DNA of 64,000 nt, from contig NZ_JACHDS010000001.1 in NCBI RefSeq assembly GCF_014201195.1, forward strand, positions 2,976,001 through 3,040,000, given 5' to 3'. The translations under genes and the position numbers were made by a program. How positions within the stretch are numbered: the first letter of the stretch is position 1; every line of letters begins with the position of its first letter. Shown one piece after another: positions 2,645 through 6,819 of this stretch. A model generated the notes under the pieces. It was given only the letters and a program-made list of their open reading frames with translations. It had not been told where the DNA came from and searched no databases. Source of the DNA: Nocardiopsis mwathae (GTDB lineage: Bacteria > Actinomycetota > Actinomycetes > Streptosporangiales > Streptosporangiaceae).

Positions 2645-2674
2645 GAAGCCCCGGGCCGTGCGGCCCGGGGCTTC
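2645..2674 (-). terminator. Attenuator-like terminator ahead of aroF
   Basis: A perfect stem of 14 bp with a 2-nt loop. On the minus strand it is followed directly by TTTG, so it reads as an intrinsic terminator placed between the leader peptide stop (2690) and the aroF start (2553). Its 5-prime arm contains GGGCCG, which can pair with CGGCCC at codons 12-13 of the leader, a candidate antiterminator pairing. The hairpin is seen; the attenuation role is inferred. Confidence 0.8.
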
Positions 2675-2689
2675 GATACGTCGTCCGTG

Positions 2690-2764
2690 TCAGCGCAGCG
2701 CTAAACGGGCGACCGTCCTACCCAAGGGCCGGTAGCCATAAAAGCGCCAAAACTTCCGCTGCAT
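2690..2764 (-). CDS. Aromatic-rich leader peptide of aroF (24 aa)
   Basis: A 24-codon open frame starting MQRKFWRFYGYRPLGR and ending at TGA 2692-2690. Residues 5-11 hold two Phe, one Trp and two Tyr, the three end products of the pathway whose first enzyme is encoded downstream. This is the composition expected of a ribosome-stalling leader peptide. There is no ribosome binding site; the ATG lies 7 nt after a TATAGT box, so it would be the 5-prime end of a leaderless mRNA. Codon 21 is the rare leucine codon TTA. The terminator at 2645-2674 follows 15 nt after the stop codon. Control by charged aromatic tRNAs is inferred. Confidence 0.8.
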   Translation of the reverse strand: MQRKFWRFYGYRPLGRTVARLALR

Positions 2765-2771
2765 GGGAGCG

Positions 2772-2777
2772 ACTATA
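2772..2777 (-). promoter_or_regulatory. -10 box of the aroF leader transcript
   Basis: TATAGT on the minus strand ends 7 nt before the leader-peptide ATG (2764), placing the expected transcription start at the A of the start codon. A weak -35-like TTCGAC lies about 16 nt further upstream. Confidence 0.65.
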
Positions 2778-4986: not shown

Positions 4987-6819
4987 CTTGACTCTGTCGG
5001 GAATCTTGGGGTTTGCCGGTGCGGCAGCGTGATCAGAGGGCATGCTCGGAGCTGTTCCGAAACCCGATGCAGTCGTTGAGGTGTCCATTGTCGCTCCGTC
5101 CCCGTTCCGGTGAGCAAGTCCCGACCATGACCGCGCAGGTCGCGCGAGCGAGCAACCCGAACGGCACGACAGCGATGTGGGTCAGAGACCGGCTGGACGG
5201 ACTGTGGTGCGACGAGGACTTCGCCGGCTGGTACCCACGCGACGGGCGCCCCGGCCTCTCGCCCGCCCAGCTGGCCACAGTCTGCGTTTTGCAGTTCCTG
5301 CTCGGCCTGTCGGACCGGCAGGCCGCCGAGGCGGTCCGCTGCCGCATCGACTTCAAGTACGCCATGGCCCTGGAGCTCGACGACCCGGGCTTCCACCACA
5401 GTGTCCTGGCCGACTTCCGTGAGCGTCTCGCCGAGGACGACCGCGCCGACCACCTCTTCGACCTCGCGCTGGCGCGTCTCCAGGAGGCCGGGCTGGTGCG
5501 CGAACGGACCACGCAGCGCACCGATTCCACCCACGTCCTGGCCGCAGTGCGCGACCTGACCCGGCTGGAGCTGGTCACCGAGGCGGTGCGGGCCGCGTTG
5601 GAGGAAGTCGCCAGCACCGCCGGGCACCTGCTGGCCGACCTGGTCGATGAGGACTGGGGGCACCGCTACGGTCGTCCGGTCCGTCTGGGAAAGAATCCCA
5701 CCCGGCCCAAGACCAGGATCAACACCACCGGTGACGACGCCGCCCGACTCCTGGAACACCTCTACCGGCACGCGGCACCCCGCGTGTTCGGCCCCCGTGT
5801 CCAGTCCCTGCGGCAGATCATGGTGCAGAACTACTACCAGGACGCAGCGGGCCGTCTGCGCTGGCGCACCGAAGAGGACGGCGGGCTGCCGCCCTCGTCC
5901 CGGGCGATCGTCTCCCCCTACGACACCTCCGCCCGCTACGCGCGCCATGGACACATCATCAGCTGGACGGGATTCTCCGCTCATCTGACCGAGACCTGTG
6001 CCCCTGACGGCCCCAACGTGATCACAGACGTGGCCACCACCGCGGCCACCGCACACGACACCCGGGCGCTGCCCGGCATCCACACCCGCCTGCACCGGCG
6101 CGGCCTTCTGCCCGCCGAGCACCTGGTCGACAGCGGCTACACCTCCCTGGTCCACCTGGAGCAGGCCGCCCGCCGACACCAGGTCACCGTCTGCGGGCCA
6201 CTGCCGACCAACCCCACCCGCCAGCACCGCCGAGGCGAGGGCTTCGGCCGGGACGACTTCCGCATCGACTTCGACCGCCGGCAGGTCACCTGCCCCCAGG
6301 GCCAGGTCAGCAGCGGCTGGCACGGCCCCTACCCGACGTCCTCACCCACCGCGGCTCCACTGATCGTGGCCCGGTTCACCAAGGCCCAGTGCGGGCCCTG
6401 TCCGGTCCGTAGCCAGTGCACCGGCTCCCGCGAAGGCGCCCGTAACGTCGGCTTCCCACCCCGAGAACTCCGCGACCTGCAACTCCGCGCCCGTAGCGAG
6501 CAGCAGACAACCGAGTGGAAGACCCGCTACGCGGTGCGATCCGGAGTGGAGGGCACCGTCAACGAGTTCGCTCACGGCTATGGCATGCGGCGCTGCCGCT
6601 ACCGAGGCCAGCCGAAAGCCCACTTGCAGCACGTGTTCACGGCCATCGCCGTCAATATCGAACGCCTCAGCGGCATGCCGCCCACCGGAGAAGCACCCCC
6701 AGCCCGGCCCCCCACTGCCTTCCAGGACTACCTGGACCAACACGAGATCCACCGACCGAAGTCCTGGCGGACCGTCGGCAGCTGACCTCGACAGCTCCAA
6801 GATTCCCGACAGAGTCAAG
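4987..6819. mobile_element. IS1182-family insertion sequence with CTAG target duplication
   Basis: A complete element of about 1.83 kb. The ends are 23-bp perfect inverted repeats (4987-5009 and 6797-6819, CTTGACTCTGTCGGGAATC...). Both ends are flanked by CTAG (4983-4986 and 6820-6823), the apparent 4-bp target duplication; counting the flanks, the symmetry extends to 29 bp from 4981 and 6825. It carries one intact transposase gene. The right-hand CTAG is also the outer end of a MITE-like repeat, so the element inserted exactly at that repeat's border. Confidence 0.9.
5088..6785 (+). CDS. IS1182-family transposase
   Basis: A 565-residue DDE transposase with the IS1182 arrangement: an N-terminal DUF772-like region ([31 protein letters not shown]), then acidic residues in [14 protein letters not shown], the VDSGYTS motif, a C-x2-C cysteine pair ([11 protein letters not shown]) and GVEGTVNEF near the C-terminus. 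The reading frame is intact. I prefer TTG 5088 because GAGG lies 6 nt upstream and the protein then begins [12 protein letters not shown], like relatives; ATG 5067 and ATG 5127 are alternatives. The gene fills almost the whole insertion sequence. Confidence 0.93.

Follow-up and report, generated by a model that had tools for sequence, protein, structure and literature searches.

What does a very short ORF crowded with aromatic codons do upstream of a DAHP synthase gene? The question arises in Nocardiopsis mwathae, in a stretch of 64,000 nucleotides that we analyzed as a whole (here, the window) and in which the features described lie on the minus strand unless stated otherwise. The ORF (MQRKFWRFYGYRPLGRTVARLALR) runs from an ATG at 2764 to a TGA at 2690 and has, as the original prediction described it, 24 codons (plus TGA) with F, W, F, Y, and Y in seven residues; these are F5 W6 R7 F8 Y9 G10 Y11 (TTT TGG CGC TTT TAT GGC TAC; 2752-2732). 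It alone reaches five aromatic residues in seven among the 854 short ORFs (10 to 40 aa, ATG or GTG) of the 64-kb window. Beyond it lies an intrinsic terminator, GAAGCCCCGGGCC-GCAC-GGCCCGGGGCTTC (2674-2645; folding energy of -30.3 kcal/mol), followed by TTTG. This hairpin had been read as a perfect 14-bp stem; the stem and the TTTG are present, but the stem has 13 pairs and a 4-nt GCAC loop, because a 14th pair would leave a loop of only 2 nt. The gene that follows (2553-1489; 354 aa) is aroF, as had been proposed, and Pfam matches place its product among the type I-beta DAHP synthases (DAHP_synth_1, E = 9.7e-81; DAHP_snth_FXD, a ferredoxin-like regulatory domain, E = 1.8e-19), with the start at 2553 (MVIVM) conserved in relatives. 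On the plus strand, an ORF resembling by eye a ThiI-type tRNA thiolation enzyme (78-1445) converges on aroF, and another (5013-6785) resembles, also by eye, an IS transposase.

The leader appears to lack an untranslated 5' region. A -10 box, TATAGT (2777-2772), is separated from the leader ATG by exactly the 7 nt that had been claimed and, since it ends at that distance 5' of the ATG, transcription would start at or beside the start codon. The same geometry recurs among 79 nonredundant leaders from related loci: in 77 of them, a TAnnnT box precedes the start by 6 to 8 nt (exactly 7 nt in 56), a Shine-Dalgarno-like motif was seen in one, and the start codons are ATG in 52 and GTG in 27. With this spacing and no Shine-Dalgarno sequence, the ORF falls in with the leaderless leader peptides that are common in Actinobacteria (PMC8079986). 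A TTA near the leader end had been singled out as of added interest; it is there, as codon 21, but the 79 leaders together have just two TTA codons, for which reason we dropped the idea of a link to bldA and suggest no role for it.

The original prediction had staked itself on conservation of the peptide upstream of orthologous aroF genes, and a search of 162 upstream regions of aroF homologs, taken from whole genomes and named contigs, found that conservation. An ORF with at least four F, W, or Y residues in eight, within 300 nt of the gene, is present in 92 of the 162 regions (1.1% in Markov shuffles), and one with at least three in eight is present in 115 (6.5% in shuffles). The leader takes the form MQRxFWRFYGYRP in Nocardiopsis-like species, MRTAFxFWYGDGP in Nonomuraea-like species, and MRNVVYFFWYGQPG in Actinomadura-like species. 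Peptide, leaderless geometry, terminator, and pairing are conserved across Streptosporangiales, with a diverged form beyond (e.g., MASTYFFGHLPG in Nocardioides and MRDHYGFFWFGDG in Nitriliruptoraceae); no aromatic leader was found in the ten most distant loci (L105 to L114), which belong to other phyla or distant actinobacterial classes. The aromatic fraction is 0.213 in the leaders versus 0.034 in aroF. Codon choice differs as well: the leaders use TTT 58 and TTC 38 times and TAT 44 and TAC 32 times, against 0 TTT to 264 TTC and 8 TAT to 229 TAC in the aroF genes, a preference that could stem from slow decoding or from keeping the 5' end open.

A first alternative rests on the peptide itself. 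TnaC is a nascent peptide that arrests the ribosome with tryptophan, and a comparable arrest, in which the nascent leader peptide senses a free aromatic compound and so sets termination, would account for the well-conserved GYRP or GDGP segment past the aromatic codons. That segment, however, coincides with an RNA element (region 1, below) whose base changes match those of the terminator arm; elsewhere the peptides diverge strongly (e.g., VTRWFGYFTGSGRMLDRVE) while the aromatic codons stay, and induction by excess product would run opposite to what a biosynthetic gene needs. We therefore consider peptide arrest improbable.

Region 1 (CGGCCC; 2731-2726) has two possible partners: region 2 (GUCGCCCGU; 2713-2705), giving a 1:2 hairpin, and the 5' arm of the terminator (region 4), giving a 1:4 helix. 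Region 3 (ACGGACGAC; 2688-2680), right after the stop codon, joins region 2 in the fold of the window sequence. The proposed antiterminator, CGGCCC with GGGCCG (2666-2661) in the terminator arm, held up, and its pairing is conserved and compensated; a second helix nested inside it had been missed. Together, the nested 1:4 and 2:3 helices of the window sequence make one long antiterminator, which has the stop codon toward its top and, by using the terminator 5' arm, excludes the terminator. The minimum-free-energy fold of the whole window leader contains the 1:2 self-fold together with the terminator.

These pairings were counted in an alignment (A1) of 58 sequences. Region 1 and the terminator 5' arm read CGGCCC/GGGCCG here and GGACCC/GGGUCC in another clade. 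The 1:4 helix is paired in 93.5% of alignment cells (at most 60% in slid versions), with 32 double-change cells versus 15.2 ± 2.4 in shuffles, and the 1:2 helix is paired in 90.2%, with a C:G to G:C switch; such counts overstate the number of events, because the clade-defining 1:4 and 1:2 switches each occurred about once on the main tree. Sign tests on independent pairs across the tree met too few events to have power and were set aside. The 2:3 helix scores 16.7 with its own partners versus 14.4 ± 0.29 with swapped and 13.1 with shuffled ones, and across the 79 leaders the complementarity between leader and terminator is 20.3 for own pairs versus 17.9 ± 0.3 for swapped pairs and 15.1 for shuffled leaders. 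In a separate lineage (L152, L153, and L158), both sides changed together, the terminator core to CTCGGAGCC and the leader segment to GGCTCCGAG. For the 18 leaders that do not belong to the main alignment type, complementarity of own pairs is again clearly higher than that of shuffled ones (20.9 versus 14.5) but only weakly higher than that of swapped ones (55 of 500 swaps were as high). The antiterminator folds at lower energy than its shuffled versions, whether these are synonymous (mean z score of -1.4), by codon order (-1.8), or of the linker (-1.3), with negative values in about 90% of the 79 leaders; for the window leader alone, with the stall placed at Tyr9, the values are weak (-0.5, -0.1, and -1.7).

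One further segment, CTGCGCTGA at the leader end (2690-2701), is almost invariant. Much of it is kept out of frame in one locus (L026) and past the stop codon in another (L044), which indicates that it works as RNA or DNA; it makes up the top of the 2:3 helix in the window sequence, though its whole role is perhaps wider.

The leader ribosome might also govern the start of aroF translation, or the access of Rho, rather than intrinsic termination. The U-tracts are broken behind several of the terminators (e.g., TCGTCGTTT), as such a role would allow, but a strong GC hairpin separates leader from gene in almost all of 109 cases and the complementarity is aimed at its 5' arm, so that we give this possibility little credence.

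We infer the behavior of the ribosome and the regulation from the established mechanism of attenuation. On the strength of the conserved leader, the terminator, and the competing pairings, which support the attenuation originally proposed, the locus is very probably a ribosome-mediated transcription attenuator of aroF that responds jointly to charged tRNAs for all of Phe, Trp, and Tyr. The transcript would start with the leader ATG, and its bare 5' end would receive the first ribosome. With all three amino acids plentiful, the ribosome at the stop codon would cover region 3, the terminator would form, and aroF would be off. With any one of them short, the ribosome would stall within codons 5 to 11, and 2:3 and 1:4 would pair before the 3' arm of the terminator is made, giving the nested two-layer antiterminator and turning aroF on. 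Without a ribosome, the 1:2 leader hairpin would be able to coexist with the terminator.

In a folding simulation with a masking ribosome run on 103 leaders, the antiterminator reached about 0.75 to 0.76 with the ribosome at the aromatic codons versus 0.10 at the stop. Codon shuffling and synonymous recoding reached 0.66 to 0.67, the aromatic-codon occupancy being barely above recoding because the GC-rich arm pairs with much, and we do not rely on this simulation. A ribosome at Tyr11 is predicted to give little antitermination (0.24), and Tyr9 would therefore be the main Tyr sensor.

Whether the codons set what is sensed can be judged against a second enzyme. DAHP synthase feeds the synthesis of Phe, Tyr, and Trp alike, chorismate mutase only that of Phe and Tyr. 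A covariance model built from A1 recovered, in this genome, only the aroF site, at 117 bits, with the next independent site at 21 bits; the best of these weak matches elsewhere (21 bits or less) was a terminator without such a leader, and they were discarded. A class-wide scan with the model added matches over its full length in a large genus that we take to be Streptomyces; these sit upstream of chorismate mutase and encode leaderless peptides such as MLTHPTFLFTYGDRPTGCHGRAA. Class-wide matches confined to model positions of about 69 to 122 appeared to be similar terminators and were left out of the count. A search of chorismate mutase genes in N. mwathae itself turned up another such case ahead of a monofunctional enzyme: a leaderless leader, MTHRYFAFSTPAPDRPAAAT, and a terminator belonging to it (L292/L286; G000:C1, about 2851267-2851490, minus strand, outside the window), for which five relatives have counterparts. 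The chorismate mutase leaders use Phe and Tyr, and Trp occurs in 2 of 28 of them versus 73 of 79 DAHP synthase leaders (Fisher P = 6e-17, with relatedness ignored). Judged from these sequences, the residue content of the leader tracks the downstream enzyme. That a single leader senses all three aromatic amino acids, as the original prediction held, is supported by the presence of F, W, and Y together in 72 of the 79 nonredundant leaders and by the chorismate mutase leaders being mostly without Trp.

The same contrast bears on a third explanation, in which the product of the ORF is a small peptide with a function in trans and the terminator does no more than separate transcripts. The peptide core is conserved, and peTrpL offers the precedent of a leader peptide that acts in trans (PMC7298713). 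Yet a trans-acting peptide would need neither residues matched to the downstream enzyme nor conserved RNA pairings between ORF and terminator, and the leaders have both; we regard this explanation as the least probable of the three. An anthranilate-synthase-like gene in this genome is preceded by a GC hairpin and, ahead of that, by a candidate leaderless leader with WW, MRSGLTRHQWWRRP, which is a likely Trp leader (L291; G000:C1, about 2548300, minus strand, outside the window). We lean toward the view that Actinobacteria have a set of leaderless attenuators that name the products of each branch, Phe, Trp, and Tyr at DAHP synthase, Phe and Tyr at chorismate mutase, and Trp at anthranilate synthase, all three being present in this genome. 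Two further DAHP synthases of this genome, encoded elsewhere, are of type II, and neither they nor 11 type II loci in ten other genomes showed a clear aromatic cluster upstream.

In Escherichia coli, the ilvGMEDA and thr attenuators each use one leader to read more than one end product of a branched pathway, as proposed here; they differ in belonging to another pathway, in enteric bacteria, and in having an ordinary 5' region with a ribosome-binding site. The nearest described case is aroR-aroF of Corynebacterium glutamicum, for which an aromatic leader (Phe-Tyr-Phe) and ribosome-mediated attenuation have been reported (Neshat et al. 2014; PMC11802643, PMC4046766, PMC7356990). Both are actinobacterial systems with an aromatic leader peptide immediately before a DAHP synthase gene; for aroR, the residues reported are Phe-Tyr-Phe, and Trp is not mentioned, whereas the present leader combines Phe, Trp, and Tyr ahead of a type I-beta enzyme. 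In Streptomyces lividans, leaderless leader peptides (trpL1, trpL2, leuL, ilvL, thrL, and metL; PMC8079986) likewise have a start codon at the transcript start, a short ORF rich in the amino acid concerned, and a hairpin before the gene, but none of the eight listed in Table 4 of that study stands before a gene for DAHP synthase or for chorismate mutase, and the main text says nothing of chorismate. A 2005 survey of actinobacterial attenuators gave structures for Trp, Cys, and Leu/Ile genes only (Seliverstov et al. 2005; PMC1262725); its trp attenuators share with the present element GGCC-type segments common to antiterminator and terminator but carry Trp codons only and precede trp genes. Rfam gave no gathering-level match in the window, only chance-level ones at E values up to 10. 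In the open-licence literature, we found no regulator of this kind at DAHP synthase entry described for this group, although an earlier description elsewhere is possible.

In a large group of bacteria that make antibiotics, the element is a likely regulator of entry into aromatic synthesis. A single RNA apparently integrates all three end products, and its sister element at the Phe/Tyr branch point mostly lacks Trp, so that the DAHP synthase and chorismate mutase leaders offer a natural comparison of how codon choice sets what is sensed. The leader would also be a simple target for raising flux into aromatic metabolites.
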